Source: Choanephora cucurbitarum
Lineage: Eukaryota; Mucoromycota; Mucoromycetes; Mucorales; Choanephoraceae
DNA length: 64,000 bases
NCBI GenBank assembly: GCA_025331435.1
Contig: JAIWNI010000128.1
Coordinates: 1-64,000 of the forward strand
Direction: 5' to 3'
Part shown: in pieces, positions 26,890-64,000 of the stretch
Numbering within the stretch: the first letter of the stretch is position 1
Layout: each line of letters begins with the position of its first letter
Position numbers and translations under genes: made by a program
Notes under the pieces: model-generated
The model's database searches: none
Told to the model about the DNA's origin: nothing
The model's input: only the letters and a program-made list of their open reading frames with translations

Positions 26890-26947
26890 CCACTTTTCTC
26901 TTTTTATTTTCTCTCTCTTTCTTTTAATTTTATCAATCCACCCAAAA

Positions 26948-35491: not shown

Positions 35492-37326
35492 ATGTCTTAC
35501 ATTGGCTATCAAGGTGAGTCGAAGAACGAGGACTTCCGCCATGTTTCTTAACAACAAATCCTTTTTTAGAACTCGTTGACTTTGTCTCAAATCCTAATAC
35601 TACTGATTGCTCACTTAAAGCATTTATTGCCACACATGAAGATATCATTGTGTCAACAAACCACTTTAATTCTCCTGAACTCATGAAATCTCTATGGACT
35701 AAAAGATACCTGTCTGCTCTCAAGAATTTAAATAACACCCAGTTACGCAGACCAAAAGAGTTGGCAAAAGTAGAAAGCTGTGTATGGAAGTTGCTGTATA
35801 TGAAGAGAGTGAGTACTTTTTTTTTTCAGTAACAAGGGCGCAGACTGATGTATCAGCCTAGCCTCAGCAAACCGATCCTTTAAGTGAAAAGCTTTTTCAT
35901 TGGTGTATTCAACTAGTAAGTTTGAATTGTATGTATGATAGGAAAGTCTGTTGTACTTAATACTCTGTCCCATAGTTCAAGAATGATGATATTTCTTCTG
36001 ATGTGCACGAGATCACGCAGGAAGTCGTTGCACTGGAAAAGAAGTCAGAAAGAACTCTTGCCGACAGCTTGAAGATCATGGCAACTAAGTCCTTGCTGAC
36101 ATTTGACAACTTGAATCATCTCGAGAAATGTGTACTCAAGTGAGTGGTGCTCAAACGTTGTATTTACGCGGATTGCTGATTTATTTTCTAGACTTGCGGT
36201 TTCAAAAATAGTGAATCTCAGCTCTCCTGCATTCGCAGCTGAATTTCAAAAAGCCATAGACATCAGCAAGTTCCAGGAATTGAGCAAGTTAAAGCCGCCT
36301 TCCTTCTTGACTGAAAAGGAAGAAGATGAAATAAAGACGATCTTCGAGAGATGCAGACAGGTCATAAAAACAACAAGAAAAGAAAGAGAAGTATGCTAAC
36401 TTTTCATTAATTTCTAGTCAGTATTTGTTGACAATAAGCCAGTCAATTTTGACATTGAAGTCAGCAAAGAGGGCCAAATAGGCTATATCATGATGTTCAT
36501 GTAAGCGATTTCATCTTCAAGCAAAAAATTTAGCTAATAGTTATATAGGAAGAGCAAGTTCTCCCAATGGAAATATTTTGCTGCTGCTGCTGAAGAAGAA
36601 GAAGATAGTGAAGACTGCCGAAAGAAAAGAAAAAGAGAAGAACTAGATGAAGAGATTGTTGTTGAAACAATCAAAGAAATCCTGAATACTCTTTTTGCAG
36701 ACACACTAATGCATTGGAAGTCTGGGGAAAATACCACAGTTGCTAGCAAGAGAATGAAGATTGCAAATGAATTATCATTCAGCAACAATGGGTTGTGTAA
36801 GAATGTCATGGGCAGGAGAAGCGATCTCATTCTGTACAACAGCAAGAAGACAGCTCTTTGCCTGAGTGAGGCTAAAAATGGTAGAAGCATCTCAGATGAT
36901 ATAAGCCAACAATCAAAAAGCATTAGATGCTCAAAGTCGTTGCAGGCTTATAACAGACTGATAGGTGGATCTGATAGCATCTGGTCTTTTGACTGGAGTG
37001 GTAAGTGTGATCGGGTGACATGAATATCTATTTATCTAACAACTCTTAAAGGTACAAGAGGGCACTTGTACTCTTTGATGAAGTATGAGGGTGTTGATGT
37101 GGTGCTGCCGGGTAGAACACTATGTCTACCAACAACTGCCAGTCAAATTGAGGATTTGCAAGCAACTTTGGTTGCTTTCTATGAGCTGAAAGTAAGTAAA
37201 CAATAATCACATTAGAACTTGAAATTAAAAGCCATTGTATAGAACTTCATCAGCAGTTATGACAGAGAGCTTGTTGACGAATTTGTCAAAGTGAACGAAC
37301 ATGAACAGGTGTTCCAAAGCCCATAA
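35492..37326 (+). CDS. PD-(D/E)XK nuclease-like protein of unknown family, apparently intact
   Basis: Eight exons: 35492-35513, 35570-35808, 35976-36139, 36192-36390, 36418-36500, 36549-37000, 37052-37191, 37243-37326; 1,383 nt, 460 aa, all joins in phase. The start is the first ATG of a short exon and could lie further upstream. The N-terminal half is helical with no known domain. An Ala/Glu-rich stretch and a KKRKR cluster (possible NLS) sit in the middle. The C-terminal third carries MGRRSDLILYN…CLSEAKNG: Asp followed by E-x-K, the layout of a PD-(D/E)XK nuclease core, then alternating strand/helix patterns (GHLYSLMKYEGVDVVLPG). MG(K/R)R(A/S)DLI is shared with the gene at the right window edge. 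Nuclease activity is inferred only from this motif. Confidence 0.65.
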
Positions 37327-38443
37327 TTTTTTTTGTTCTTCTTTTTATGTTAATATGTATTATATAAATATTTTGTTTCGTTCTGTTATTTGTTAAGAGG
37401 AAAGGAGGGAGATAGAAAAAATCGGTATTTGACACAGGATACTGTATGTATATAAAGCTTTGGCATGACTTTTACACCAAACAGTGTATATCCATTCTAC
37501 AGCAGCTGAAACTATGAGTATCTACAGTTTAAAGGATAGTGAATAAAAGCAATACGATGTATATTCGCACAAACGCTCTTACGTAGTGTCTTACGAAAAT
37601 GCTAGTATTCTAAACTAACTTGCCAGAAGAGATTCGATCGCTTTTGATCTCTACAAAACAAAACTTGAAGTCAGTTAGCTAACTCCTAAACATAAAGAAA
37701 GCTATGATATTCTCGCATGGGGCTCCATGACCTTTGCGCGATAAAACAAAAGTACAAATGCAATGCGAACTTCTTGGGGGAACGAGTCCGAAGCAAGAAC
37801 AATGATAAACGATAGACATCAGTTATCAAGGCATCACATTTACTGAGAAAAAAAAAAACTAAAGCACTATATATAAGACAACTGCGCCAAGCGAACTTCT
37901 TGGGGGAACGAGTCCGAAGCAAGAACAATGATAAACGATAGACATCAGTTATCAAGGCCTGACAACAGCTAAGAATCAACTAGATGACAGCAGTGTATAA
38001 TTAGTTCTTGCTTGTAATTGTAAGGGAGGGTGGATATTGGTTTGGGTTTGCTCGGAGTTTAAAGTACTAATAAAAGCCACCAAAGGACAAAAAACAATTT
38101 GTCCTTTCGAAACTTTTAAGCTGTTGTGAGCCGAGTGTTCTACGTCAGCTGCGTAATTGAATCTCTCTCTTGACAGAACATTTCCTTTTTAGTTTGCTCT
38201 GCCATTATTTCCTTTCTTGATCTGCCCACCTTTCTCTTGACAATTGGTTCTATCCAGTCTTTCCTATTATATATTATCATCCGTATTTCGTTAGTATAAA
38301 TAGCCCTCATCATTATTTCAATAAACATTATCTTTTTTCTTACTCAATCAATTCTGTCTCTACTTGAGTTCAATTGAAGTAATCTCTTTTATTCTTTTCT
38401 ATTTTATAACAAATCTAAAGTCCGTCAATCCGGCTTATTTTAA
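37327..38443. other. Non-coding region with 68-bp repeats and LINE 5' flank
   Basis: AT-rich. Holds the 68-bp direct repeat described separately. A TATAAATAG at about 38,297-38,305 followed by AATAAACATTATC resembles the promoter layout of the LTR-like segments at 40.7 and 52.4 kb, so it may be the promoter of the LINE or an old LTR fragment. Confidence 0.35.
37765..37958. repeat. 68-bp perfect direct repeat, two copies
   Basis: Copies at 37,765-37,832 and 37,891-37,958 appear identical, from GCGAACTTCTTGGGGGAACG to ATCAGTTATCAAGGC, and are separated by 58 bp of AT-rich spacer. The unit is GC-richer than its surroundings and contains CTTCTTGGGGG and AGTCCGAAGC. It creates a spurious minus-strand ORF. 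Origin unknown. Confidence 0.85.
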
Positions 38444-39740: not shown

Positions 39741-40434
39741 TAGGTCCTCTTTACTACTCCAATTTGGCTCATTAAACTGTAATTGTTTGGTGAAGTCCAA
39801 CAATCCCCTTAAACAATCTCATTTTATCCGATATCTACGTTCCTTACAATTCGACATCCTTGCCTTTCAAGAAACCCTTGCCTCTCCTTCAATTATTCCT
39901 GTTCTCAATACACAGTTCCAAGCTCACCAATCTTTATGGACTTCGAACTGTGGTATCGTTTCCTTCTCCTCCTCATATCAGTTCTCACCCGATTTGCTTC
40001 CTGATGATGACCGAGTAATCCTTACCAAGGTTACTAATCCTCATAATCTTTTTCCTCCTTTCTTTATCCTGGTAGTTTATGCACCTGCATCCTCTGGCCG
40101 GGAACGAAAGACCTTTTTCAATCACCTTTTGGATTCATTAAATCTCCCTTCCTTGGATGTTGATTCTGAACGTCTATTCATTGCGGGGGATTTTAACTAC
40201 TCCTATCTGAGACCCAACCTTTTCTCATCAACCTCTGAACGCTGGATTTCCTTTCTTGATGAAAGGTTCACCAACACTCTTCAGGCTTTTGACTTACATG
40301 AACTACCTACCTTTTGTCGTAACGCCTCCACCAGTTCAACGATTGACTACATTTTCACCAGTCGTAGCCTTCACCAATCAGTTGATCAACCCTGAATGGT
40401 CTGATCACTCGCTTCTGACGTTGACATGCTCACT
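39733..40434 (+). pseudogene. LINE ORF2 N-terminal endonuclease domain (truncated)
   Basis: Starts at 39,733 inside ATGAGTAG, overlapping the ORF1 stop, a classic ORF1/ORF2 arrangement. Endonuclease/exonuclease/phosphatase-family motifs in order: FGSLNCNC, FDILAFQET (catalytic Glu), FILVVYAPAS, LFIAGDFNYSYLR and SSTIDYIFTSR. The frame ends at 40,395, but the neighbouring frame supplies INPEWSDHSLLTL with the expected SDH catalytic motif, so a frameshift lies between about 40,340 and 40,395. Normally this domain is followed by the reverse transcriptase, which is absent. Confidence 0.8.
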
Positions 40435-40877: not shown

Positions 40878-41012
40878 CCTTATTCCTATTCGGCGCTCCT
40901 TTAATTTTGATATTCTTATTTTACTTCTTTAACATTTCATTCATGCATAATTGATTCCATAACTAGTTATATGCATTGACTCGAACTTATCCAAGATCAA
41001 CTTTGTTGACTT

Positions 41013-41579
41013 CGGAGGGGGAGCATGTAGTGAACTACATCATATACAGTATCGACAGATTCATGTATTACCAAATATATCCTTTCTAGAACTAGCAGAA
41101 TACTATCACATAAAGTACATCCTCTTTGGGAGTAACTAAAGATATTCTATACACTTCTATTTCGAGTCTGACATCGAATACGTTCCTGAATAGTAACTCT
41201 GCCACACTTAGAATGGCTGGCCCTGAATAGATCAGTGATCAGACCGCTACATCGAAAAATCGTGTTAAGACAACGATTTCTACACAGTCCTCATCTAGCA
41301 TTAGTAACCATCCTGAAAAGTATAAATAGAGAGACTTTCTTGAACTAGAATTAGACAACTATCTTTTATTTTATCCAAAATAAACCCCCTTTAAATCGAC
41401 TAGTGTTTTTTTTTCTACTTTTTTTTATATCGAACTTTATCCCTAACTCAATACATCATCTACTTAGACTTCGCTCTTATCCAATCGAAAGCTCAACGAG
41501 ACCTCTACGGATTTTTCAATCAGGCCACATCTGAAGTCAGAGTGAGCCCTACGGCAATTGTAGTAGATACAACCCCACA
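41013..41579 (+). mobile_element. Polypurine tract and LTR of a Ty3-type retrotransposon, left arm
   Basis: GGAGGGGGAGCA (41,014-41,025) directly precedes TGTAGTGAACTACA, the layout of a polypurine tract before a 3' LTR. The LTR runs from 41,026 to about 41,579 (554 bp, ending ACCCCACA), with TATAAATAG near 41,320 and AATAAACC downstream. TGGTCAAGTTGGCG follows one base later and looks like a primer-binding site, so this LTR has features of both a 3' and a 5' LTR. The 3' boundary is approximate. Confidence 0.6.
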
Positions 41580-41782
41580 ATGGTCAAGTTGGCGAAACAA
41601 AGACAGAAAAGATGTGGTGGGTACCCGCCCCACCTTCAAAGGGATCGAAACATTGAATGGCTTGGCTTGAAAAAATAGAATAATGCATTCTATTTATTTA
41701 TTTATAAACTATCTAAGAATAAAAGCGCGGCTACAGACCCTACAGCCACATCTTCTGTCTTCATTGAGCCAATTTGACCATT
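41580..41782. repeat. Inverted stem around LTR-proximal sequence
   Basis: 41,580-41,617 (AATGGTCAAGTTGGCG…AAAGATGTGG) is an imperfect reverse complement of 41,746-41,782 (CCACATCTTCTG…TTGACCATT). The loop of about 128 bp contains GGTGGGTACCC and GCGCGGCTAC. Mirrored in the right arm. Confidence 0.6.
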
Positions 41783-42486
41783 CAGTTGAATTATACAAGA
41801 TATAATGACGATAATTTTAAGAGATAAGTATAATTAGTTCAGAATAGAGTTATGGTTGAATAGCTCTATTTCAAGCAACAACAAAGAAGAGTGTGCCGCC
41901 CAAACTTAAAATATCAGCCATTCAAGTTCACAATTGATTTTCTGCATGGAACTATTAGAGAAAAGTCTTGGTATTTGAAGGATCAGATTTTCTGAAAAGA
42001 AAAAAAAAACAATCCGATGAACTTTTGAGAAAATTATAGTGTACTCAAGCACAATCTTAAGTATTGAAGATTTACTGTCCATAAGCGTAGGTCATTAGCA
42101 AAGTTTTTCGTGTGTGGATTTTGATTGGATCTCATTGTACAATGAGTTTTGCTCCTCTACAACAGAGATTCGCTTGCATAGTAGTATTTGTTTCCTTTCT
42201 GCAGTCAATCGATATGAATTATGTTGCTTCTGGCTCGATGATGATGCAAAATAATCAGCTACTAATTTTCGATGGATCTTCAAAACTTTAATACATCTTC
42301 GAGCTAAGCTTCACTCAAACTGCTAGGTCCTTTCGAAAACGTGATTTTCTCCTCTCTACTGGCTACTTCAATTATTGTGAGCAATAAAAAAATAAAAAGA
42401 TCAAAGAAAAAGGGAATATATATGTTTAAGTGTTGAACAAAATAAAGGAAAAGACAGAAAAAAAAAGAGAGAGAGAGAAAAAGGAT
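41783..42486. other. Non-coding part of left inverted arm
   Basis: AT-rich 3' flank of the nuclease-like gene. The 62-codon ORF here is mirrored in the right arm but has no recognisable product. Confidence 0.35.
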
Positions 42487-44514
42487 TTATTCTGCCTCTC
42501 TTACTCTCCAGTTTGTTGGTCGTTGAAATGGATGTTCGGTTTTATCCATTCCAAGACCAACAATTGCTTCTGCTTGCTCCTTAATCTTTTCCTACATATT
42601 TGAAATGAAGAGGGGTTCAGTTACTATTACAGTCTTTTCTTTTTTGGTTATATTATATGTACTTACGCAAATGTTGATCATGTCATTGATCATAGGCAGC
42701 AAAAGGCTCAAATCACCGATCAGGCAAGGCATCTGTACAGCATTCAGCTCTTTCATTATATATATGCCTTCATTTTCCAAGCTCATCTCATATGAGATCA
42801 TGGTATCACCGTGTAACAATGTACCAAATGAGTGAGCTTTAGGAAGAGGGCAGCCACGGGATACAAGTTCATCCACCATGACTTTCATAGTATTTGCTAA
42901 TTTTACGAAATCAAGATCACCTTTGTTTGCCTCAGGTGTCTTTGCTTCCATGCTATAGATGTTTAGTTCCTCGCCTGACCCAGAAAAGAGCGAGACCAAA
43001 TAGTCGGGCTTGACAGCATACCCATTCATATGTTTGTCTTGCCTAAATAATAATAAAAGTTATTATTTTTGGTACATCAATTCATATACTAAAGAAAGCT
43101 TACATGTCTACTTTGAACACATTTGCGTTCAATCTTTCAAACGTGTTTCTAGCAATTGGGGAAAAGAACAGCGAGATAAACATCGTCTCGGCCATTTCCT
43201 CAAGACACCATCTTTTGTGGCTAGCCACACTAGTAGCAAGTGTTAGTATGGAATCAAAACTAAATAAAAACATAGCTGACGTACACTTCGTTCAACACTC
43301 TTGAGTATGTGACCAGCACATCATCGTCGGCCTCACTTGCTTGAACAAGGAAGCTCAAGGTCTTTTTGCTCAATAACTTCGTCAATTGATCTTCTAGACT
43401 TGCTTCTTCTTCGATGAAGTTGGCCTTGATCTACAAATGGGGTATTAATTCTTTCTTTTTGTTTTTAAAAAAGGGGTCTTATATGTGTATGCCTTACCTC
43501 TTCCAACTGGTTGACCCAAGCCTTAACGACATCGGGTACTGTGGGCAAAGCCCTGCTGTTCAAATTGTTCAAGAAAAGATGAACATGAAGGGGCAGGGAC
43601 TTGCCCACAGACTTTTGTCTTCGGCCTGACACAAAATATATGTGGTTCAACATCCTAAGAAAAAACAAACTGTTAACAGCATATGTATTATGCAGGATGG
43701 TGTTACTTACAGTTTCTGCACTGCAGACAACTTCTTGCCCTGCTCCTTGGCAAGAACTGCACTTGTTCTTAGTGATGATAGTTTATCTATAACATTGTTA
43801 CCATGGCACATCCACTAAAACAAAAAAAAATGATTTAGTACATGCATGAAAGTTATTAAATAAATGAAATAAAACACATATGTTTTCTTACAGCACTTGT
43901 TTGAGGATGAGTGCTGACAGGGTTTGAAATCAGTGTCATTGCTGCAGAAATAGACGATTCGGCGGTAGTAGCAGTGTCAGTAGCAGTAGAAGTATTAGTA
44001 GCAGCAGAAGTAGAAGTGGCAGGAGCAACAGCAGAGGCAGTATCAGCAGCAACAGCAGTGGCGGGAGCAACAGCAGCAGTATCAGCAGCAACAGCAGTGG
44101 CGGGAGCAACAGCAGCAGTATCAGCAGCAACAGCAGCAACAGCAGTATCAGCAGCAGTGGCAGGGGCAACAGCAGTATCAGCAGTGGCAGTATCTGCATC
44201 TTCGTCCTCTCTCACACGCTTCTTCAACAAGCAGCGGAACGTGCTGGAATCTAGCGTTCCATAGACTTCTGCGTCCATTTCTTGACGGTAAAGAGACAGC
44301 AAGTCTTTATGTCGTCTTCTGAGAGTGTGACGAAGGCTTTCGCTGCTTTCGTTGGTGATCTTCAGTTCTTCAATAAAGCGGTGAACAAACACCAAAAGAA
44401 AGGGAGCTTCTTCACTAATAACAAATTTTTTCTGTTCTTCTTTTACTAATACTGCGTGTCAATAATTTCTTTCTTTAAGAAAAGTTTATTCAAAGTTAAC
44501 TTACAATCAAGCAT
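42487..44514 (-). CDS. PD-(D/E)XK nuclease-like protein with Ala/Thr repeat, intact copy
   Basis: Eight exons on the minus strand: 44514-44505, 44445-43892, 43814-43711, 43654-43498, 43430-43285, 43229-43104, 43042-42667, 42591-42487; 1,578 nt, 525 aa, all joins in phase. The first exon codes only MLD plus one base. A helical N terminus (FVHRFIEELKI, LRRRHKDLLSLYRQEMD) leads to a basic/acidic patch (KKRVREDEDAD) and about 85 residues of Ala/Thr/Val-rich repeats encoded by imperfect trinucleotides. More helices follow, then a C-terminal core: VKPDYLVSL…IYSMEAKTP (Asp followed by E-A-K), a helix (DFVKLANTMKVMVDELV) and strands with LLHGD and GIYIMKEL. It ends PFQRPTNWRVREAE. The core layout is that of PD-(D/E)XK nucleases; no named family recognised. 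Exons 6-8 and part of exon 5 lie in the inverted repeat. Confidence 0.65.
43965..44190. repeat. Imperfect trinucleotide (GCA/GTA-type) coding repeat
   Basis: AGCAGCAACAGCAGTGGCGG-type units repeated within exon 2 of the gene at 42,487-44,514, encoding Ala/Thr/Val runs. The inverted copy at 45.8 kb lacks it. It also generates long Leu-rich and Ala-rich ORFs in other frames. Confidence 0.85.
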
Positions 44515-45570: not shown

Positions 45571-46891
45571 ATGCTTGATTGTAAGTTAACTTTGTATTTT
45601 TTTTTAAAGTAAAAGAAGAACAGAAAAATTTTATTATTAATGAAGAAGCTCCCTTTCTTTTGGTGTTTGTTCACCGTTTTATTGAACACATCAAGATCAG
45701 TAATGAAAGCAGCGACAGCTTACTGCGTACTCTCAAGAGACGTCACAAAGCCTTCTTGACTCAGTACCGTCAAGAAATGGACGCAGAAGACTATGGAACG
45801 TTAGATTCCAGCACGTTCCGCTGCTTATTGAAGAAGTGCACTGACTGCCAAGGAGCTAGACAAGAAGTTGTCTGCCATACAAAAGTTGTAAGTACCACCA
45901 TCCTGCATAATACATATGCTGTTAACAGTTTGTTTTTTCTTAGGATGCTGAACCACATATACTTCGTCTCAAACAGAAGACAAAAGTCTGTGAGCAAGTC
46001 CCTGCCCCTTCGGGTCCACCTCTTTCTTAAACAACCTAAACAGCAATACATTACCTGTGTGCTGGTCACATACTCAAGAGTGTTGAACGAAGTGTACGTC
46101 AGCTATGTTTTTATTTAGTTTTGATTCCATACTAACACTTGCTACTAGTGTGGCTAGCCACAAAAGATGGTGTCTTGAGGAAATGGCCGAGACGATGTTT
46201 ATCTCGCTGTTCTTTTCCCCAATTGCTAGAAACACGTTTGAAAGATTGAACGCAAATGTGTTCAAAGTAGACATGTAAGCTTTCTTTAGTATATGAATTG
46301 ATGTACCAAAAATAATAACTTTTATTATTATTTAGGCAAGACAAACATATGAATGGGTATGCTGTCAAGCCCGACTATTTGGTCTCGCTCTTTTCTGGGT
46401 CAGGCGAGGAACTAAACATCTATAGCATGGAAGCAAAGACACCTGAGGCAAACAAAGGTGATCTTGATTTCGTAAAATTAGCAAATACTATGAAAGTCAT
46501 GGTGGATGAACTTGTATCCCGTGGCTGCCCTCTTCCTAAAGCTCACTCATTTGGTACATTGTTACACGGTGATACCATGATCTCATATGAGATGAGCTTG
46601 GAAAATGAAGGCATATATATAATGAAAGAGCTGAATGCTGTACAGATGCCTTGCCTGATCGGTGATTTGAGCCTTTTGCTGCCTATGATCAATGACATGA
46701 TCAACATTTGCGTAAGTACATATAATATAACCAAAAAAGAAAAGACTGTAATAGTAACTGAACCCCTCTTCATTTCAAATATGTAGGAAAAGATTAAGGA
46801 GCAAGCAGAAGCAATTGTTGGTCTTGGAATGGATAAAACCGAACATCCATTTCAACGACCAACAAACTGGAGAGTAAGAGAGGCAGAATAA
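45571..46891 (+). pseudogene. Decayed inverted copy of the Ala/Thr-repeat nuclease-like gene
   Basis: Starts with the same mini-exon (ATGCTTGATT|GTAAG) but intron 1 is only about 28 nt. Exon 2 matches as FVHRFIEHIKISNESS…STFRCLLKK, with many substitutions. The whole Ala/Thr repeat and the following intron are missing: LLKK is joined directly to sequence homologous to the AKEQGKKLSAVQKL exon, in the wrong frame. A further stretch matching NLNSRAL to ASEADDD is deleted near 46,040. From 46,058 onward the exons are essentially identical to the intact copy, including SMEAKTP and the REAE end. The 3' half would thus encode an intact core but cannot be reached in frame from the start. Confidence 0.7.
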
Positions 46892-47797
46892 ATCCTTTTT
46901 CTCTCTCTCTCTTTTTTTTTCTGTCTTTTCCTTTATTTTGTTCAACACTTAAACATATATATTCCCTTTTTCTTTGATCTTTTTATTTTTTTATTGCTCA
47001 CAATAATTGAAGTAGCCAGTAGAGAGGAGAAAATCACGTTTTCGAAAGGACCTAGCAGTTTGAGTGAAGCTTAGCTCGAAGATGTATTAAAGTTTTGAAG
47101 ATCCATCGAAAATTAGTAGCTGATTATTTTGCATCATCATCGAGCCAGAAGCAACATAATTCATATCGATTGACTGCAGAAAGGAAACAAATACTACTAT
47201 GCAAGCGAATCTCTGTTGTAGAGGAGCAAAACTCATTGTACAATGAGATCCAATCAAAATCCACACACGAAAAACTTTGCTAATGACCTACGCTTATGGA
47301 CAGTAAATCTTCAATACTTAAGATTGTGCTTGAGTACACTATAATTTTCTCAAAAGTTCATCGGATTGTTTTTTTTTCTTTTCAGAAAATCTGATCCTTC
47401 AAATACCAAGACTTTTCTCTAATAGTTCCATGCAGAAAATCAATTGTGAACTTGAATGGCTGATATTTTAAGTTTGGGCGGCACACTCTTCTTTGTTGTT
47501 GCTTGAAATAGAGCTATTCAACCATAACTCTATTCTGAACTAATTATACTTATCTCTTAAAATTATCGTCATTATATCTTGTATAATTCAACTGAATGGT
47601 CAAATTGGCTCAATGAAGACAGAAGATGTGGCTGTAGGGTCTGTAGCCGCGCTTTTATTCTTAGATAGTTTATAAATAAATAAATAGAATGCATTATTCT
47701 ATTTTTTCAAGCCAAGCCATTCAATGTTTCGATCCCTTTGAAGGTGGGGCGGGTACCCACCACATCTTTTCTGTCTTTGTTTCGCCAACTTGACCAT
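46892..47797. other. Non-coding part of right inverted arm
   Basis: Mirror image of 41,580-42,486: 3' flank of the nuclease-like gene copy plus the stem-loop region next to the LTR. No separate gene. Confidence 0.4.
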
Positions 47798-48364
47798 TGT
47801 GGGGTTGTATCTACTACAATTGCCGTAGGGCTCACTCTGACTTCAGATGTGGCCTGATTGAAAAATCCGTAGAGGTCTCGTTGAGCTTTCGATTGGATAA
47901 GAGCGAAGTCTAAGTAGATGATGTATTGAGTTAGGGATAAAGTTCGATATAAAAAAAAGTAGAAAAAAAAACACTAGTCGATTTAAAGGGGGTTTATTTT
48001 GGATAAAATAAAAGATAGTTGTCTAATTCTAGTTCAAGAAAGTCTCTCTATTTATACTTTTCAGGATGGTTACTAATGCTAGATGAGGACTGTGTAGAAA
48101 TCGTTGTCTTAACACGATTTTTCGATGTAGCGGTCTGATCACTGATCTATTCAGGGCCAGCCATTCTAAGTGTGGCAGAGTTACTATTCAGGAACGTATT
48201 CGATGTCAGACTCGAAATAGAAGTGTATAGAATATCTTTAGTTACTCCCAAAGAGGATGTACTTTATGTGATAGTATTCTGCTAGTTCTAGAAAGGATAT
48301 ATTTGGTAATACATGAATCTGTCGATACTGTATATGATGTAGTTCACTACATGCTCCCCCTCCA
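47798..48364 (-). mobile_element. LTR and polypurine tract of a Ty3-type retrotransposon, right arm
   Basis: Reverse complement of the left-arm LTR, same predicted length (47,798-48,351, 554 bp). On the minus strand it is preceded by GGAGGGGGAGCA and, further out, by a chromodomain integrase tail, which shows it was the 3' LTR of a chromovirus-type element. Confidence 0.7.
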
Positions 48365-48501
48365 AAGTTAACAAAGTTGATCTTGGATAAGTTCGAGTCA
48401 ATGCATATAACTAGTTATGGAATCAATTATGCATGAATGAAATGTCAAAGAAGTAAAATAAGAATATCAAAATTAAAGGAGCGCCGAATAGGAATAAGGC
48501 A

Positions 48502-52942: not shown

Positions 52943-53069
52943 TGCTGCCGCAGGCTTGCTAATCCGATGAGAGAAGTAGAAAGCTAAATTTGCCATAAGT
53001 ATTTGAACTGATAGCAATGATGAACGATGCATTAGTATCACTTTGTAGATTAATAATTGAGCGATTTAT
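52943..53069. other. Short spacer
   Basis: Begins with GCTGCCGCAGGC, a further small palindrome, then AT-rich DNA without features. Confidence 0.3.
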
Positions 53070-53402
53070 TTAGTTTAATAAGAGTTCAGGATATACAATG
53101 TTTCTTGTTGTCTCTTCTTCATTATCTTCACTAAATAACACTGTGATGTTCTTCCAACTTGTTGCTCGCGAAAAGGCTACATAAAGCTGACCGTGGGCAA
53201 ACGCTTCATACCTTAGGTCAATTCCAACGTTTTGAAGTGACTGTCCTTGAGCCTTGTTTATGGCCATGGCAAAACATAAGCGAACCGGAAACTGCTTTCT
53301 TGTTAAAATAAAGGGTAGCTCGCCTTCCAGTGTTGATAATTTGATTCTGGGTTGTCGTATTTGACTTATCACATACACTATTTTCGGAAAGTATTCGTGC
53401 AC
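53070..53402 (-). pseudogene. Helitron/PIF1-type helicase, C-terminal fragment
   Basis: 110 codons with the last helicase motifs: [34 protein letters not shown] and [14 protein letters not shown], ending [10 protein letters not shown]. This ending is typical of Helitron Rep-helicases and related PIF1 helicases. The fragment starts inside a hairpin element at 53,382-53,462; all upstream helicase and Rep motifs are missing. Confidence 0.8.
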
Positions 53403-53462
53403 TAATAATTTTCGTTTCGTGCACTCTCAAAAAAAATTTTGGTGCACGAATACTTTCCGAAA
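53382..53462. repeat. Short inverted-repeat element (MITE-like, about 80 bp)
   Basis: TTCGGAAAGTATTCGTGCAC (53,383-53,402) is perfectly repeated in inverted orientation at 53,442-53,461; one more flanking base pairs. A third GTGCAC lies in the 39-bp loop. It truncates the helicase fragment. Confidence 0.8.
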
Positions 53463-53504
53463 GTACTGTAACCATAGTAGCCAAAGACAAGAGGTAGCCA
53501 GACA

Positions 53505-55292
53505 TGACATGCTGAGCACTATAGCAGTATGTGATACAGAAGAGGTGGTACTGAAGAAAGTACGAGAAAGGCCAAATTCGATTCAGTTCGATTTCCGCCT
53601 TTCTATCGCTTTTTTTTTTCTTCTCGCACTTACTCCAAGATCAGCAAAGATGGAGGTGAGCTGACCGAGCTTGAAGCTAAGAGAAGTTGTGAAAGTAACA
53701 ACGCAAGCAGTAATAAAAGCAATTTTTCTAGGGCGCGACAAGTCAATGCTCATAGTTGCTTTTTTTCGAGTATTCAATCTTGTTATGTTGGATTGACTTT
53801 CTTTGCATCTTTAATCTTTTCTTTTATTGTTAAGTCGACTGATGACTGCTTGCCTAGTAGTCGATCAGAGTAAGTGTACAAACAGATGACAAGCAAAGAA
53901 TAAGCCGAGTTAACTTTCTGTTTATAATTAGGTCAGAGAAAGTGGTGAAGAAAAGGACGCGATTCGTATGTTTTTAGTCAAGTGGATGAGCATAGCCAGT
54001 GTAGATGCCAATGCTCAAAAGGCCAATCAAGATATGATGATACAATGGATGTTGCATAACGGCTAGACAAAGAAAACAATGTTACAAGTATAGATAAGAC
54101 ACGAATTAGAAGATAACAAGAGGAGTGAAAGAGGCACATGCAAGTGAAGTAAAAAAAAAGCACACCCAGATTGCAGTGGAAGCGGATCTCTTGATGGTGG
54201 CTGTTGATTATTCAATGCTGCTTTTTTTTTTTTTGGAGAACTCACAGGATTTATTGTACCTAGACATGTGTATGAGTTTTCTTGCTTTCTCGGTGAGCGA
54301 AATTCAACTCGGTAAGTGTGATGCAGTGCATAGGATGGCTCGATTCTATTGCCTTCTCTTGCTTCACAAATAAACAATTGTTTGTTGAAAAAGCACAACA
54401 CAGCTCGACCTTTGTGCAAGTATAGTCAGTAATTCAGTCAGCCCATACAGTCATTGTATGTAGAAGAAAGAGCTGCATTGACACACTAAGAAAAGAAGAA
54501 AAAGAAAAAAAAAGAAGAGAAAGACCCAGACTAGCATTACTCTTGTGCTAAACTCAACGAGTAGCATACAGAATGATAGATACACGGACAAGATCTCAAT
54601 AAAGAGCATGTTCCAGATTAACGCTTACAACTGAATTTGATGGAAGGATATGTATTACACAGTTTTGTAGATGAGAGTGTACAAGGATCAAACTGCCTGA
54701 GCATGAAGGATGCAGTAGATAGATGGGAGGTTTAGGAAACTCAAATTAGTGCACATATCTCTGTTTTATGACACTCGCTTCTCTTTCTCTTTCCCTCACA
54801 AGCTATCTACAGCCTAATATATGCCATATTCTGTAGGGTGACCAACTGAACAATGACAAAAAAAAATAACTTGCCTTCTATTCGCGTCTTTTTTGAGTAA
54901 TGTCATGAAGCACACAACTGAGGATAACAAACATTCAAATAGTGAATACAAATCATTATCTTGTTTCATTTTTATTTCGCACAAAAACAAATAGCTCCAA
55001 CGAATCCAATTATTGTCTCTGGCTGGTGCTTTGGGTAAGATCCAACCTGCTTCTCTCTAATGCCTTATCCCCAAGAGAAATAAAAAAGGAAGAAGAAGAA
55101 GGTTTATCCAAGAAATATCATGTCGCTAAGATAAAGCCGAATAGATCCCATACAAATCTTAATTGCCTACCTTGAACAGGACAAAAACCGCGCAGCAATC
55201 ACTCCCCTCGCAGAATACACCCTGACAAACAACATATTAATCTCAAATTTTATCTCATACCAAAGCCTACAGCATAACTAGTTGCTTTCTAA
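53505..55292. other. Non-coding, repeat-derived region
   Basis: No gene recognised in about 1.8 kb. It includes an imperfect hairpin at 53,565-53,604 (AGAAAGGCC…CCTTTCT) followed by a run of about ten T, and several purine-rich microsatellite-like stretches (for example near 54,490-54,525). Confidence 0.4.
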
Positions 55293-55718
55293 TCAGACCA
55301 AAGGATAGCCACCTTCTAAGGTTGTTGATTTGACTCTCGGAACAAGTTTTATTTGTTCTTCGCTTGAATTGGTGTCGCTCAGAACTGCAGCCTCAAGAAC
55401 ATCTTGCCCTATATCTTTGACGACTAGGCTAGTACCATTGCAGAGGTCTTTTTCAGGATTAAAATTTATCAAGAGCATTACAATACAGCTTATTTTAAGA
55501 TACATCTTTGAAAGAGGAAAGGTAACTGGGTTTAATGTTTGAAGATATTCAGAGAAGACCATGTAGACTTCGTTGTTAGCAATTTCTCCTGTGGAAAAGT
55601 GAGCTTTATCTGTCGATATCAATGTAATGGAAGTTCCAGGCATCAATTCAGGCACCCTATGATTAATGGTATTAACTGTATCATTTTTGGATGTGAGGAT
55701 AGCCGATCTACATAACAA
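55293..55718 (-). pseudogene. Second Helitron/PIF1-type helicase fragment
   Basis: 141 codons: RSAILTSKNDTVNTINHRV, LMPGTSITLISTDKA, EYLQTLNPVTFPLSKMYLK, PEKDLCNGTSLVVKDIG and ending LEGGYPLV. These are C-terminal-half features of Helitron helicases, ending just where the 53.07-kb fragment's conserved LEG-(x)-PF segment begins. The two fragments overlap only at that LEG segment and differ there, so they probably come from separate copies. Truncated on both sides. Confidence 0.72.
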
Positions 55719-55737
55719 AGTAAATCTGATTTTTCAG

Positions 55738-55758
55738 TATATTGATAGATAGATAGAT
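55738..55758. repeat. (GATA)n microsatellite
   Basis: About four GATA units (TTGATAGATAGATAGATG), just outside the start of the direct repeat copy B. Confidence 0.7.
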
Positions 55759-55784
55759 GTAGCTTTAGTTTCTGTACCATTAAG

Positions 55785-57296
55785 GTAGACCAGCGGGGCT
55801 CTTAGGGAAACAAAACAAACAAGCTATTGATCAAGACTTGAATTGTTGTCTTCAAAGAGACGTAAGAAGTTTCTTTGATTTCCTTTGAGTGTACATCTTA
55901 TTTTGAATTGTATTTTTATTTTATTTTATCTAGTTATATCTATAAATCTTAGAATGCATCTTTGAAAAAAAAAATGGTAATACCAAAACCGACAGAGATC
56001 GATTTGGATGCCTGATATTTGTATAAAATAAGCATCCTATTAGTGAATAAGCTCCATCAACACTACAGGGAACTCTTGATAAGCAGAGGAAGTGGAGATG
56101 ATGCTTCAAATAAAGGTTATTATCAGCCAAAAAACCTTCACTCATTCCACCTTCAATCTCAGCAGCTTTTGTATTGCTTGAGTTTTGTTTTCATTTTCTC
56201 AGAGTTGCTTAAAAGATAGGATCCGTAAGATTGGTTGCCTGTATTCTTGTTTTCTTTCAAGCTTCTTCTAATGCAGTGAGCATATTTTACTCATAACCAG
56301 ACAAAATGTGTTGTAATATAAGGAATTCAAAGGTGCTGCGACCAAAGATTTCCGATCGTTCTGTTTGAGCTTCAAGGTTACTATAGCCACAAAGAAGCCC
56401 TTCCTCAAAAAAAAAAATAGAAGCTACATTTCAAACTAAGGAATTTCTTGTTAAAGCAACTATTGCCTCTTTTCACTTTCTAAACAAACGGTGATTAGAT
56501 AGCCTAAATACACCATGTTTTTTAAACTTCCTTTGATTGATTGTCAATAGCTTGTTTTTCTTCATCAATACAATAAGTAAGAATGTGAGTGCTTGTGCGT
56601 TTCCAAAAAAGAAATTTGCTCCTTTCGATATTACCTTTTTTGGAAGGCGCCGATTTCATTAATATAAACAAAAGGATTATCCTTTTTTTTCCTACGCTAT
56701 ATCTCAAAAACAATGCTTTCATTATGTTGTCAACTCTTAAAAGTGACAAGAATGAAGAAGGATTAGTTTTTTGCTTTGTTTTGTAAAAAGAGAAAGGAAA
56801 TGTACTTTTCTTTTAGTTAAAAAAAAATTGGAAGAAAGCCTTTTTGAGCACAGACCAAGGAAACTCAAATTAACTACTTTTGTTGTGTGAAAAAAAAAGT
56901 AACAACTGCTTTTGCCTTTCCCCCTACAAACCGTGAATAAAATCAGACCGAAATTCATGTATAACGCATTGGTTTTCAAAGTGAAATAAAGCAGCACAAA
57001 TAGATCTCTGAAAGGGATAAAAAAAGAGAGTACTCAACGTCTTGTTTACATGTTTCAGATCTGACTTTTAAAATTTCGCGTTAAAAGAGCAAAGTATAGC
57101 GATAAAGAACAATGAGAGAATTAAGCGTATGAACATAGTATGCAAGTGTTATAGAAACACGTCATTTCGGGAACCAATCATTGACAACGAGCTTATCAAC
57201 ATGAAAAAAAAAGGCATTTGAAGAAAACTTGGGAAACAAAAAGGGTTAAAAAAAAAGAGCTTATCTACTTTGCAAGATGAATAAATGAACAAATCA
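55785..57296. other. Non-coding left part of copy B
   Basis: Counterpart of 25,371-26,881; same lack of convincing genes. Confidence 0.4.
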
Positions 57297-57304
57297 TATA
57301 AATA
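57297..57304 (+). promoter_or_regulatory. TATA box of the Ser/Ala-rich gene, copy B
   Basis: TATAAATA 59 bp upstream of the ATG at 57363, as in copy A. Confidence 0.5.
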
Positions 57305-57362
57305 CCACTTTTCTCTTTTTATTTTCTCTCTCTTTCTTTTAATTTTATCAATCCACCCAAAA

Positions 57363-58061
57363 ATGAGTAGAACCAGATTCCTTACCCGCGTTATCAAAGT
57401 CAGCCTTGAAAAGCACAAAAAACCATCAAGTACTAAAGAGTGTCCTCTCCATACAAGACTTTTTGCCCGAAAGTACTACAACAATGCGAAAGGAGAGCTT
57501 GAAAGACGTGCTGCTCTTCAGCGTTCAGCTTCTTCTGCTGCTTCTGCTTCCTCTGCTTCCTCTGCTTCTCGTCGCTCAGTTACTCCTGAGCATCGTCGTT
57601 CCGTTGCCTCTTCTGCTTCCTCTTCTGCTCCTCGTCATTCAGTTGCTTCTACTGCCTCTTCTGCTTCCTCTTCTGCTCCTCGTCATTCAGTTGCTTCTAC
57701 TGCCTCCACTGCCTCTACTGCCTCTACTGCCTCTACTGCCTCTACTGCCTCTACTGCCTCTACTGCCTCTACTGCCTCTTCTGCCTCTTCTGCCTCTTCT
57801 GCCTCCACTGCTTTGGCTGTCTCTGCTGCTTCTGCTGCTTCTACTGCTTCTGCTGCTTCTGCGGCTTCTGCGGCTTCTGTGGCTTCTCGTCGCCAAAGCC
57901 AAACTGAAGAAGTTATCAGAGTATTGCGTAATATTCGCGAGGCTCCTACTATTCGTCGCCCTCCTGCATCACGTAGCGTATGTATTGCCTTGAAGAGAGA
58001 TAGAGATGATGATGAAGATGAAGAAGATGCTCCTCGTAGAAAAGGGTGTCGATTAATTTGA
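57363..58061 (+). CDS. Ser/Ala-rich low-complexity basic protein, copy B
   Basis: 232-aa version of the protein at 26,948-27,625. The N-terminal region and the C-terminal EEVIRVLRNIREAPTIRR…RRKGCRLI region are unchanged. The middle differs: the SASSSAPRHSVAST unit occurs twice, the STA run is longer (about nine triplets in a row), and a segment with TALAASAASAAS is shorter. The frame is kept despite these changes, so all length differences are multiples of three. This supports selection for the reading frame or a very recent duplication. Function unknown. Confidence 0.6.
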   Translation: MSRTRFLTRVIKVSLEKHKKPSSTKECPLHTRLFARKYYNNAKGELERRAALQRSASSAASASSASSASRRSVTPEHRRSVASSASSSAPRHSVASTASSASSSAPRHSVASTASTASTASTASTASTASTASTASTASSASSASSASTALAVSAASAASTASAASAASAASVASRRQSQTEEVIRVLRNIREAPTIRRPPASRSVCIALKRDRDDDEDEEDAPRRKGCRLI

Positions 58062-59125
58062 TTGCCTTGTTTTCCCACCCTCTTGCCCATGTAGCTGTCT
58101 CGTTGCGTCGTTGTCTTGTTGCTCTGATCATTCATTGTGACATTGCCTCGACTTCTCGTTTTGCGCCGCCTTGTTGGTTTCTTTTGTCGTTGTCTTGTTG
58201 CTCTGACCATTCATTGTGACATTGCCTCGCCTCCTTTTGTTGCGCTGTCTTCTTAATTTCTTGTTGCGTCTCTGCCTCTTGCTTACGGTCGCTGCTTCGT
58301 CAGTGGTTGTATCTTGTTTTGAGGATCTCGTCTCAAATTTCCTCTGTTCTGTCTGTGACTCTCCCATAGTTTGCAACTGCTGAACTGTCAGTGGTTGCTA
58401 CTTGTATCATAGGCTGTCGCTTGTGTCTCTTCTATGTCTATTCTCTTTTGGCTTGCGGCTGCCATATCTTTGGTGGTTACATCCTAATTCAAAGGCTTTT
58501 GTCAGTGGTTACCTGTATATACAACTTGCTTATATATCTTAGTTTGCTAAATGGTTACCTAATTCTATTAGTACAATCTCAATATCAATAAAATAAATAT
58601 ATTTATATTTACATTGCCTTATAATCTTGATTCGATTAATGCATGCGTTTGATATTTTCTTACTAGTTACCATGATAACCATATTATCTCTTCCGGATCA
58701 ATACCAAAGAAAGCAGCGATTTGTTTTCAACTGTGTTTTCTTATAGTAAAGAAGAGATATTCGCAAGCGGATTGCACTGGATTGTACTCAATTGGGTTTG
58801 GACTAGTTTAGGTATATTTCGTTTCATCATGATCTCTGGACACATGTCTGTACTTGCACATATAGGGCTTTTGAGAAATAATGGAGCTTGTATACTGATA
58901 TGGATATTTTTTTTTTCAATAGATGGGCACCTTTCTGATGGAAGTGATATAACGATCAATGACATAGAAATCTATTCTATTTCCTTTTTCTCCCCCAGTT
59001 CTAGATCAGGATACAATCTTGCCGAGAACGAAACAAGATGTCATAGATCAGATTTATTAACATTCTTTGTCTGTTGTCATAGATACTGCATGCTGATAGC
59101 TAAAAATATCACTAGATATGATTAG
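58062..59125. other. Region downstream of Ser/Ala-rich gene, copy B
   Basis: Counterpart of 27,626-28,690, with the same short degenerate repeats. Confidence 0.35.
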
Positions 59126-59357
59126 GATTGGAGTATTACGTTGTTATGTAAAGGACATATAGTTGATCGACGTAAAAGACACAGTACTCATAAGACCATT
59201 CAAATTAGCTGTAAATGTGGTATGAAATAGCTCTTTTTTCTTTGTTAATTTACTTGTTGTTATTCAATGAGATGGACCTGCGTTGATGCGAGAAGAAGGT
59301 TTATCTCAAAATATCTTTACAGAACTCAAGGAGTATGCCAAAGGAACAGAACAGTGA
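59126..59357 (+). other. Candidate spliced exon pair, copy B
   Basis: Exons 59126-59219 and 59272-59357, same splice sites and stop as in copy A, with two amino-acid changes noted (WRIT to WSIT; DEPAL to DGPAL). Frame and splice signals are intact. Confidence 0.3.
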
Positions 59358-62300
59358 GCAATACTATGAAGATATTGAGGTTATTCTCAAGATATCAAAT
59401 AAAGAAAAGAAACAAAAAAGAAGAATAAAAGTCCATGTACATTTTCAAAAAGTGCATGTTTTCTGTATAGATTGCGTACATGAGTAGAACGATTGAGTTG
59501 GACCATGTCTGACAAAAGACAAAGAGATTAGAAAATGAGATAGAGCGTAGGCAACTACAAGCATTATCACTGAACAGCTTGGTAAACTATTGAAGAGAGT
59601 ATAAAAGAACAAAGAACAACATGCTTTGAGTACTTGTATGTTTTATCGGAACAATTGTAGTATAGACGGACAGAAATTATCTCTTGTCAACCGAATATAT
59701 CTGGAGTGTTTAGAAGGAAGCTCAGCAGGAGCAGACAGGATAACCCATGGTACTCTTCAGCTTGATAGATTAAAACTGCATCAAAGGAGTTTATGATTGC
59801 ACGCTTGCATCCAGATGAGTGAAAGCAGGAGAGCAAGAATTTGCTCTTTATATAGAATTAGAATGTGATTAAAAAGATGCAATTGATGCTGAATACAAGA
59901 CTAGGGAAAACTTGTACAGTATCAGGTCGCCAAATGTTACATCTGAGACAATTATGGATGTAAAAGAATAAGAATGAAAGAATGAAAGAAAGAAATAAGT
60001 TTAAGACTCAATGCTCTACTATTAGTGATCAAATGTGCCTTTTTTTAGTATTTTCAACACAAATCCAAATACTGTGATTGAAAACAAAGCGTGCGGGCGT
60101 GTTTGTGGCTGTTATGAAATATCTCTTTGTTTTTATTGCCTATGCGATGGCTTGGCTGACATGCCAGAGCAAAGTCATTCGAGGCTGATTATCAAACATG
60201 CTTTCCTAGAAAAAGGAAACAATACAAGCTGGCGTTGATGAAATCTAATCTGTAGAAGCACATTTCACATGTCTCGACCTTCTGCTGTTTTAGAGGAAGT
60301 ATACGATTAGTCTCTTGAAATAGACTTAACGAGCCATTGCAGAAAAGACGCTATTACATCAACAGAAGAAATAAAAAGTAAATTCCTCTGAAGTGTGGCC
60401 TACTTCAACGAAGTCAGTGAAATATGGAGAAACTTAAGAATCAAATCTCATCAGCCTGTGCATCAAAAGAAGAAAAAAAGAAGATAGGCCAATTTGAAGC
60501 TGAAATAAAAGTCTACACTCCATCCATTATCATCCTCTTCTGCTTCCCTATCCTTTCAATAGCACACTCTTCTTTTGATGTGCTGATTCAAGCCATTGAC
60601 AAGGGCAGTATTGATGCATGGTATACTCAGCTAGTCCAGAGTGCTCAATTGCTTGCTTGTTTATTTATGGACTTGGAATAAAACAAACTAGAAGGGCAAT
60701 GAGCAAGAACTTGTATTCATGGTAATTTAAATGAATTTATTAGATAAAAGTTCCTAAACAAGAACACTTTAATTTCAGTGGGGGGGGGAGACTAAAGGAC
60801 TAAGTCAGCAAGAGGATGGAAGACAAGAAAAGAACCCAAAGAACCTACAAAGCCATAAGTAAAAGCGATACATACAACGGAAGAAATAAAGTGGTCGATT
60901 TATAAATAAAAGAAACAGAAGCGAGTTGAAAGCAAATATTTAGCGTTTCTTTTTTATCTGCTTTTGACTTCTATCCTTAGTTCACTTGTTGATTTTTTCA
61001 TACGAAAAGACGCTCTGTTAGATAAGAGCTAACTGCTCTCCTTCCTCTCTATCTTTTCCTTTGCCTCAACATTTCATACCTTTGCTAAACCTGAGCTATC
61101 AAAAATCCAGACTATCCTCATTTCCCTTTCTCTTTCTTATTCTTTGGGATTTCTGGGTTGGTCTTGATGCAGATGTGATTGTGTAATTTTGTGCTACACC
61201 GCTAGTGTGCTTTCTTCTAATGACTTGTTTATTTTCAGAGTAAAGAAGTGTCACAATCAATGTATCTAATTTTTTTTTACACTATAATGCATACAGTCTA
61301 GAAATAGCAAATGCTTTAGTACTATCTACTGGTCCAAAAGTAAAAAAAAAAGAAAGATCATCAAGTTCAATCATCCAAACTTGGTAACTACGTTCGAAAT
61401 GCTGTTGTTACTTTCTGTCTATAAAGCGATGTCAAAAGCATGTAAATGTAGTCAAGCATGGCAGAAAAAAGGAACCTCAAGAAAACTGATTTTGCAAGTC
61501 TTGGACAGGCTGATGTCAAGAAGAATGAATACAGAAAAGCAAACAGATCATGCTGATAGACTAAAGGGTAATGGCTGTGTAGTCAATTGTCAAGACACTT
61601 CCGAGGATCGAGAGGAATCTGTCTAGATAGTTAGATGAAAGCTGTGTCATATGCCTATTGATAAGCTATGACTTGTGCTAATGCGATAGCTAACTTAGCG
61701 AATAGAATAAAAAAAGGGATGGGGAAAGGAGAAAAAGAGAGAGCGAAGAAGAAGGCTATAAGAATTATGAACTTGTACCACTATCAATAGACATGCATAC
61801 TATGTCAGTTTATCCTTCTGATTCTGATTTCTCTTTTTTTGGATTTCATTTATTTCCTTTTGGAACTACATCTGATAGAGTGAACAGAACAAAGTGAGTT
61901 GAATGATGTTTGGCAGAAACAAACAACATGGTGTTCATTATGACTTGATAGAGTGCAAGTAGGCTGAAAATGACATGACAATGAGACAATAGACCAACGA
62001 GTGAACAGAAAGTAGTCTTTGTCATTGTTTTTATTCAATCTGAGTGATAACATTCAGCTTGTGCTGAATAGGTATGGTCTGATTTTTGACTTGACTTTTG
62101 ACTTGATTTTGATTGCAGGTTGAACAATCCAAAGCTCATACCAGAAATGGCAAGAGCAGTAATTGATCGGATTCGAACAACAACAAAATGAGAATGAAGT
62201 AATAACTATAGTAGAAATAATACAAATACGATATTATTTTTTCCACAAAGTATGGATTGAGCGCCATTCAAGCGCACCCGCTGAATGAACAAAACACTGA

Positions 62301-62642
62301 GCGTGAGCTACATGGTGCTCCATTTTCATTTTCTTCTAATTCAACATTGTAAGAGACATCATTACAGACACATATCAAGCCAAGGCATGTATTCAGCGAG
62401 CGTACATAGAGACGTCAATCAAACAGTAAAGAAGTATGATATGACATGCCTCCCCACATCTTTCGAGCACACACAAACACATCTACATTCTATTTTCAGT
62501 GGAGAACAACATGCCAAAACGTAAAAGGGACTACTCGAGAATGCTTTTCACTATTAGTTTGGACACTTTATTTCACATTGCATTTGGAACATAAGAGAAG
62601 TATATTTAATGAAATGGCAACAATAGCTTTAAGAATAAATAT
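59358..62642. other. AT-rich interior of copy B
   Basis: Counterpart of 28,923-32,268; no confident gene. Includes the candidate terminal exon near 62,119-62,191 and the G-run near 60,780. Confidence 0.35.
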
Positions 62643-64000
62643 TTATATATAAATATATATATACATATTTGCAACAAGGTGAAAGAAAAAGGGAAAAAAG
62701 AAAAAGAAGCACAACCATTCATCCCTTTTTCTCTTATTGGCTATGCGTGGAGGGGTCTGGAGACCAGAGGGCAAAGTAAAGCTCAACAAACCAGAAGGAA
62801 TCACGAATTCTTCATTGGTTGTTGTTGTTGTAGCTGTTTTTATTATTGTTGCTGTTTTTATTATTGTTGCTGTTTCTTGGCAGACTCTCTAAAAACATTA
62901 CAAAATGTTAGCTTAATGAAAACTCGTCTAAATTCATAGATTACCAAAGCAACGTGCGCCTTCTTGTATGCTTGAATAAACGATGGTATAATGTTGTCAA
63001 ACTCAACAACAACAGGCTTCGTCTTTCGCAAACGACAGGTATATCCTTGAACATAGTCCAGAAAGAAAGTTGATAACGTGGTTTCTAAAAAAAAAAAAAA
63101 AAGACTACGCATTAGATATATGAGTCCGGTCATTGTCAAACATGAAGACTTACTCGAGAACTGGAAACCAACGTATACAACGCCGGCCAAGACATCGCGA
63201 TCACCACTAACTCTCTTGAAGGTGGAGTCAAGCATATCTTTGAGTGTCTTGCAAGTCTCCATCTTACTATCAAAAGTACTTTTTCTACTATTATTGTCAG
63301 AGCTTAATGAGGCCTCGCCGTATCCAATCTCAACATTATTAGCTTGAATTATTAAATCAGCTCTCTTGCCCATTGGCTTTCTGGATCCTTCTACAGCAAA
63401 CAAATGCCTTCTCTCTGCCGAAGCGTTGCTAGGGATCTCTCCCCGTCTACACTTCAAATTCATAGCTCCAACTTGAATATCAACAATGTTGGCCCAAAGC
63501 TTGAGCATTAATTCAGTTTCTGACATATTGTCAACGAACTGACTGCTGATTATGTTATTGATGATGTTGATGGCGCCAACGAAGAAAGGAAAAGAGGCAG
63601 AGTCTTGATCTACATGTGCTAATTGCTGGATTACAAATTGCAACATGTTTGGAAAGTATCCAGAAGAGGAAGAGTTATTGGCATTATGCTTACAAAGAAT
63701 TGAGTTACATCTTAAACGAAAGCTATAGCTCAAATACATGTATTGCATAACTTACCCAGTTTAACAAGGTTTCAATGGAAGCAGCAAGAGTGCTGTCAAC
63801 AGCGGGCAATTGCTTGGCCTTGGTAGCGATAATGGCATCAATGTCTTCTTGGTTCAGGTATCTAGCAAAAGCACAGTCATCCAAGTCGACAACCCACGAA
63901 TGGCACAAACTAAAGGAATATGGTTTGAGTTCTGAATTCAGTTGTGTAGGTTATTTTGACTTACTCCTCATACAGCTTTTCATCACATACATGCTTTAAT
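62643..64000 (-). CDS. PD-(D/E)XK nuclease-like protein, 5' end outside window
   Basis: Exons on the minus strand: beyond 64000-63965, 63909-63756, 63688-63154, 63084-62945, 62888-62643, joined in phase. The partial product reads …KHVCDEKLYE|DLCHSWVVDLDD…ETLLNW|HNANNSSSSG…, a helical region (MSETELMLKLWANIVDIQVG), then RRGEIPSNASAERR and MGKRADLIIQANNVEIGYGEAS. MGKRADLI plus E-x-S parallels MGRRSDLI plus E-A-K of the gene at 35.5-37.3 kb, but the lysine is replaced by serine, so nuclease activity may be lost. The core ends VVVEFDNIIPSFIQAYKKAH. The last exon encodes TATIIK repeats and an NLS-like NKRKRDE. Copy A has a stop after KRKRDE; here TGA is TGG and the frame runs about 20 codons further to TAA at 62,643. 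Reading through the last intron instead gives a stop near 62,861. Confidence 0.62.
62825..62872. repeat. Short tandem repeat in last exon of nuclease-like gene
   Basis: Units of about 18 bp (TTTTTATTATTGTTGCTG) repeated about two to three times plus GTTGTTGTTG; copy A has a contracted version near 32,365-32,395. Confidence 0.7.

Follow-up and report, generated by a model that had tools for sequence, protein, structure and literature searches.

Candidate PD-(D/E)XK-type nuclease genes in multi-copy families of the fungus Choanephora cucurbitarum

Introduction

Choanephora cucurbitarum is a crop-rotting fungus, and early-diverging fungi are known to carry many large gene families without names. 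A first-pass annotation of one stretch of its genome, the first 64,000 nucleotides of contig JAIWNI010000128.1 in assembly GCA_025331435.1 (hereafter the window), singled out three genes, called here genes 1, 2 and 3, each with an aspartate followed near the C terminus by E-x-K or a variant of it. The signature of the PD-(D/E)XK (restriction-endonuclease-like) superfamily is P-D ... E-x-K, and the three genes were accordingly proposed to be one lineage-specific, multi-copy family, possibly of nucleases linked to mobile elements, genome conflict or effectors. Does the locus encode such nucleases and, if so, what could they be doing? Genes 1 and 2 probably encode PD-(D/E)XK-type metal-dependent nucleases that act inside the cell and probably in the nucleus. 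A role in intragenomic conflict is less certain than the nuclease part and overlaps with some of the alternatives considered below. If these are nuclear nucleases, the class would gain families missing from the libraries scanned, and the Mucorales, in which we know of no genome-conflict or drive system, would gain a candidate for one with testable active-site residues. A search of literature titles and abstract openings found none naming these families, which is not proof of absence, and the main text of the Choanephora genome paper (PMC5238444) has no word starting with nuclease, crinkl, CRN or transpos.

Conservation of the putative active site

All three genes are intron-rich and stand where the first-pass annotation placed them (Table 1); splice models recover them, and NCBI lists each as a hypothetical protein. 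The segments quoted from their products are also present: GRRSDLILYN...LSEAKNG in gene 1, KPDYLVSL...MEAKTP in gene 2 and GKRADLIIQ...YGEAS in gene 3. The proposed spacing of 15–18 residues between the aspartate and E-x-K holds for gene 1 (15) but not for gene 2 (19) or gene 3 (14, with no K).

Among paralogues, conservation of the motif exceeds chance in types 1 and 2, the families to which genes 1 and 2 belong. In the type-1 alignment the D and the E are kept in all 22 rows and the K in 21; E50, K57 and R123 (0-based alignment columns) are invariant, and Q117, K120 and K126 are found in 21 rows. These rows comprise 16 frames from the same genome and six NCBI proteins and partly represent identical genes. 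Over the alignments as a whole, P0001/L032, P0006/L042, P0013/L005 and P0014/L024 are each one gene entered twice (C, L and P numbers are our own handles). Three of the 19 own-genome rows (L040, L056 and L060) were excluded before counting for short coverage. The type-2 alignment, which includes 14 own-genome segments taken from 24 counted gene-2 places, retains the E, the K and the next P in 16 of 16 rows. Only 15 rows have the column of the D, and 14 of them keep it, the exception being L074 with G. The letters read [KQI]-P-D and E-[AVMFT]-K-x-P, and some rows are merely 26–36% identical to the reference row. Of two gene-2 copies outside this count, that at C288 has P-D and an E-V-K without the following P, while that at C321 has E-V-K-A-P, its D lying beyond the frame displayed. 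The D and E-x-K are followed by a predicted basic helix, Q-x-S-K-x-I-R-x-x-K in type 1 and D-F-x-K-L-x-x-x-x-K-x-M-x-D in type 2. Of the 22 type-1 rows, 18 have a basic cluster where the core begins.

The catalytic exon of gene 2 is under strong purifying selection in the one comparison made, with the copy at C78: 21 synonymous and five other changes separate the two, giving a nonsynonymous rate (dN) of 0.018, a synonymous rate (dS) of 0.354 and a dN/dS of about 0.05. Two other gene-2 exons give dN/dS of 0.10/0.63 and 0.15/0.68, or about 0.16 and 0.21. No ratio is given for type-1 paralogues because their synonymous sites are saturated or nearly so (dS without a value, or about 2); their dN ranges from 0.2 to 0.6. 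Stops interrupt the matched frame at some family places, and introns will account for part of them.

Family size, distribution and relationships

The families are multi-copy, as had been proposed: at exon level the genome has 74 matches to gene 1, 40 to gene 2 and 27 to gene 3. Named protein matches come exclusively from Choanephora, Blakeslea and Gilbertella, in agreement with a lineage-specific distribution, although these protein searches reach only relatives sharing exact words; two further matches, P0018 and P0019, are short. No relative was matched in bacteria and archaea with two short peptide patterns, and viral contigs gave no match to one gene-2-type protein.

The idea of a single family is borne out for genes 1 and 3, while gene 2 is joined to them by weak, in-register matches. 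Genes 1 and 3 have in common MGRRSDLI/MGKRADLI and GENTTVASKR/GEIPSNASAER. Comparison of their domain profiles gives a score of 35.2, against a maximum of 27.1 in 150 column shuffles and 14.4 for the reversed profile, and full-length profiles give 44.1 against a maximum of 22.0 in 60 shuffles. The motifs GE, GRRxDL and E-x-K/E-x-S align in register, and a second, weak N-terminal match follows the same order. On these profile scores, types 1 and 3 form one family. Type 2 is a probable, though unproven, cousin of the two; the middle segments of types 2 and 3 score 29.4 against a maximum of 22.7 in 60 shuffles. In the predicted Gilbertella persicaria protein P0011, a type-2 sequence runs into an N-terminal half that is type-1-like (52.8 bits, against a maximum of 5.8 in 500 shuffles); this is probably two adjoining genes merged by annotation. 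Tail-to-tail type-1 and type-2 genes are seen at C294 (40085, 44516) and, with genes 1 and 2, in the window, their matched places being separated by about 4 and 6 kb, respectively.

Transposons and inverted duplications around the genes

The first-pass annotation had called for the distance to transposons to be checked, and family genes do lie nearer to transposon domains than kinase genes do. Among the matches listed, 33 of 74 family places have an RVT_1 or DDE_3 domain within 20 kb, compared with 21 of 120 for kinases (Fisher P = 6.5e-5); at 10 kb the counts are 18 and 10, respectively (P = 0.003). The 74 places are gene 1–3 matches collapsed by hand; the 120 kinase places come from 147 matches, with exons of one gene merged; and the transposon set holds 150 RVT_1 matches (150 of 420 candidates scored) and 148 of 160 DDE_3 matches. 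Transposon remnants also surround the genes in the window. They include a remnant like a long interspersed nuclear element (LINE), in which a zinc knuckle and endonuclease/exonuclease domains are found, together with part of a chromodomain, a Tc1-like transposase and pieces of Pif1/UvrD helicases. The remnants at 53070–55733 match UvrD_C_2, below its cut-off, and the Pif1 2B domain, which also occur in the helicases of Helitrons.

Gene 2 lies partly within an inverted repeat whose arms are nearly identical (Table 1). Five further near-identical inverted pairs carry family genes, at C292 (4,624 bp, 99.9%), C288 (at least 5,458 bp, 99.9%), C113 (2,162 bp, 98.9%), C135 (2,150 bp, 99.0%) and C321 (2,059 bp, 96.6%), making six inverted pairs, 2 to 5.5 kb long; just one direct pair was seen (C201, 97.4%). 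These were spotted by eye without a systematic search. The two longest, at C292 and C288, may be assembly errors. A simple fold-back assembly error would stay identical up to the pivot; in the gene-2 pair, the matched stretches further inward are merely 79–85% identical, so this pair looks like an old inverted pair that was partly homogenised later. No such pair was seen by eye in the kinase match list. The transposon match lists, however, show equal-score inverted neighbours at C329, C314, C46 and C279 alongside direct ones, so it is unproven that the pairs are peculiar to these genes, and they may typify multi-copy sequences in general. Should they turn out to be peculiar to them, the pairs would link nuclease genes with the way in which the surrounding genome is shaped.

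Two side observations concern the C292 pair. Its arms end at a TA-CAGT repeat (L024:635, L025:3335) that resembles a Tc1/mariner terminus and is perhaps a separate element; the first P0014 coding exon adjoins it. In its spacer (L076:1536-1928), a frame with GE...KADACIV...ETS resembles a further core without E-x-K. At the direct segmental duplication in the window, the end of the copied segment that carries the gene-3 fragment adjoins a frame resembling a DDE transposase by eye, without a profile match.

Proposed function and alternatives

In the mechanism that we favor, the products of genes 1 and 2 would have a helical N-terminal half and then a C-terminal core, in which the conserved Asp and E-x-K would hold a metal, with the basic helix after these residues. 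This center would cut nucleic acid inside the cell, probably in the nucleus. Gene 3 is related to gene 1 and has a core without E-x-K; its product may be inactive, acting as a decoy, a regulator or an antidote-like partner, or may use another lysine. Duplications that were local and in many cases inverted would have spread the families in DNA rich in transposons, with the active site retained. Most simply, they would be players in intragenomic conflict, either selfish killers or a defense against mobile elements. The suggestion of conflict is drawn from an analogy with Spok, the Podospora meiotic drivers, in which killing requires a predicted PD-(D/E)XK domain and has been connected with DNA damage, according to parts of PMC6660238 and PMC9972908.

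A number of results weigh against this interpretation. The D...E-x-K motif is by itself at chance level: when the three whole proteins are each shuffled 2,000 times, D-x(12-18)-[DE]-x-K turns up in 88, 76 and 85% of cases, and in 36–49% when shuffling is restricted to the last 200 residues. Gene 3 has this pattern near its N terminus only, and its core reads E-A-S. Two of the three short-coverage type-1 rows lack the E (L040 has K in its stead, at a place with stops, and L056 is broken at the site), while L060 retains E-x-K. Against PD-(D/E)XK membership of type 3 in particular, literal E-x-K is found in none of 12 aligned rows (L029 was excluded), though the D and the type's own E are each kept in 11. 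The column of the K holds S in nine rows, G in one and K in two, both of the latter being the C292 gene counted twice and shifted by one residue (E-V-G-K). Across type 3 the site thus reads E-A-S, E-G-S, E-A-G-K or E-V-G-K, and in P0017, from another assembly, both D and E are lost. In a small alignment, type 2 scored 15.6 and 16.1 against types 1 and 3, within shuffle maxima of 24.4 and 18.3. The 16-row alignment gave weak matches in motif register, with P of 0.093 (type 1) and 0.039 (type 3), values obtained without shuffles. The pointer to the nucleus is the basic cluster alone. As a control, the kinases are conserved and gene-rich, so the closeness to transposons may in part be a general trait of multi-copy genes that are young.

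Structure prediction gave no usable model, and library searches count against a nuclease. AlphaFold models of gene-1 relatives (P0003 and five others) and gene-2 relatives (P0008 and five others) reached predicted local distance difference test (pLDDT) scores of 45.3 and 46.1 and are unusable. Foldseek with these low-scoring models gave no match at E <= 0.001, and the matches listed were given no weight. Both models place two strands between D and E (D343/E358 in P0003, D156/E175 in P0008), each just 2–3 residues long, and then a helix, three strands and a helix; this order fits the PD-(D/E)XK fold but proves nothing at such pLDDT. No match to a known nuclease was found in the scans made of Pfam, NCBIfam, PHROGs, PADLOC and PDB sequences. 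The best of the weak matches, all under their respective cut-offs, were set aside, namely Imm3 (E = 0.01), CCD97-like (E = 0.0013, at an acidic stretch) and NCBIfam magnesium chelatase D (E = 0.0046). Because the fold was not modelled reliably and sequence profiles found no match, membership of the superfamily is not established.

It is possible, then, that these are helical proteins rather than nucleases, whose D and E-x-K resemble the signature by chance. The chance-level motif, the two failed models and the lack of a match to known nucleases would all be expected in that case; exactly those residues, however, are invariant or nearly so in two families, one of which (type 2) has P-D and E-x-K-x-P, and we regard this explanation as distinctly unlikely. 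The other alternatives concern the role of the proteins and are compatible with nuclease activity. Host nucleases for genome maintenance or against transposons, beneficial rather than selfish, would agree with the purifying selection and the transposon proximity and would overlap with the defense half of our proposal. This is unlikely given that the copies are numerous and divergent, that stops occur in the frame matched in some of them, and that the protein searches, within their limited reach, gave few and divergent relatives outside the species. The genes could also be the cutting enzyme of an unrecognised transposon or composite element. The restriction-like endonuclease of R2-type retrotransposons has K-P-D and a later acidic residue, which the literal KPD...E recalls, and both the transposon-rich surroundings and the near-identity of the copies would be in keeping with an element of this kind. 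We nevertheless think it quite improbable: no common terminal motif or target duplication was seen by eye at the ends at C201, C113, C135, C321 and C288, the arms of different pairs have no mutual blastn match, and Pfam scans found neither a reverse transcriptase nor a transposase domain in the proteins. It is also conceivable, though very doubtful, that the genes are selfish nucleases spread by their own cutting. Breaks in or near one copy would be repaired from another, so that inverted pairs become almost identical and the nuclease exon is overlain by conversion tracts, and type-3 proteins without E-x-K would be evolved antidotes. The pattern cited for this is that of the gene-2 pair in the window, 99.8% identical in the 3' nuclease half, as opposed to the much lower identity of the matched stretches in its 5' half.

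Secreted or translocated effectors were the weakest of the options in the first-pass annotation, since nothing found supports secretion. Choanephora is a plant pathogen (parts of PMC5238444), and restriction endonuclease (REase)-superfamily domains occupy many C-termini of Crinkler effectors, which are also present in many copies and linked to transposons (parts of PMC5289972). However, the Crinkler N-terminal domain (PF20147) had no match in the genome, although likewise none in control genomes, and none in the proteins, in which Pfam scans also found no P-loop nucleoside triphosphatase (NTPase) or kinase domain. In eight proteins the best 12-residue hydropathy mean over the first 35 residues was 0.23 to 1.78, judged, with no predictor run, to indicate no signal peptide. 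We regard an effector role as very improbable.

Comparison with known systems

Types 1 and 2 share with the PD-(D/E)XK superfamily the P-D ... E-x-K pattern and then a basic helix by sequence; on the other side, the scans made found no library or PDB sequence match to a member, and gene 3 lacks E-x-K. R2-type endonucleases share K-P-D and a later acidic residue, but the Choanephora proteins contain no reverse-transcriptase domain in Pfam scans. Crinklers are similar in their REase-type C-terminus (predicted here), copy number and transposon links, and differ in the N-terminal domain, NTPase and kinase, which were not found in the Choanephora proteins. The Spok proteins are likewise fungal, present in several copies and predicted PD-(D/E)XK nucleases. 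In Spok, resistance is provided by a kinase domain in the same protein (parts of PMC6660238 and PMC9972908); no kinase domain was found in the Choanephora proteins by Pfam scans, and for this reason they are not a Spok.

Gene models and features of the window

The annotated gene 1 has an extra 18-residue exon relative to the splice model, and this exon is backed by P0003. Gene 2 encodes 527 amino acids (aa) in the splice model and 415 aa as annotated, the annotation being without a low-complexity stretch and having a different end. Gene 3 starts beyond the window, at 64568 in the splice model and at 64657 in the annotation, with 3' limits of 62643 and 62861.

Table 1. Coordinates of the genes, motif codons and duplicated segments.
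Feature	Position	Strand	Remarks
Gene 1 (type 1), EDC96DRAFT_528846	35492..37326	+	Splice model, 8 exons, 460 aa; NCBI protein P0001
Gene 1 putative catalytic exon	36549..37000	+	D codon 36823-36825, E 36868-36870, K 36874-36876
Gene 2 (type 2), EDC96DRAFT_549011	42487..44514	-	Splice model, 8 exons; NCBI protein P0007
Gene 2 putative catalytic exon, KPD...MEAKTP	42667..43042	-	D codon 43003-43005, E 42946-42948, K 42940-42942
Second gene-2 copy, EDC96DRAFT_579970	45585..46888	+	Internally shortened; head to head with gene 2; NCBI P0009
Gene 3 (type 3), EDC96DRAFT_528893	62643..64000, past window edge	-	Splice model, 7 exons; NCBI P0013
Gene 3 core codons	D 63356-63358, E 63314-63316, S replacing K 63308-63310	-	
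Gene 3 3' fragment	32272..32797	-	Part of copied 7.5 kb segment
Inverted repeat, left arm	40878..43320	.	Carries 3' half of gene 2
Inverted repeat, right arm	46058..48499	.	2443 aligned bases, 99.84% identical to left arm
Inverted-pair loci	Window 40878-43320/46058-48499; L024/L076/L025; L077/L078; L079/L080; L081/L082; L083/L084		
Direct segmental duplication	25342-32795 like 55757-63278		7.5 kb, 96.7%; ends inside gene 3

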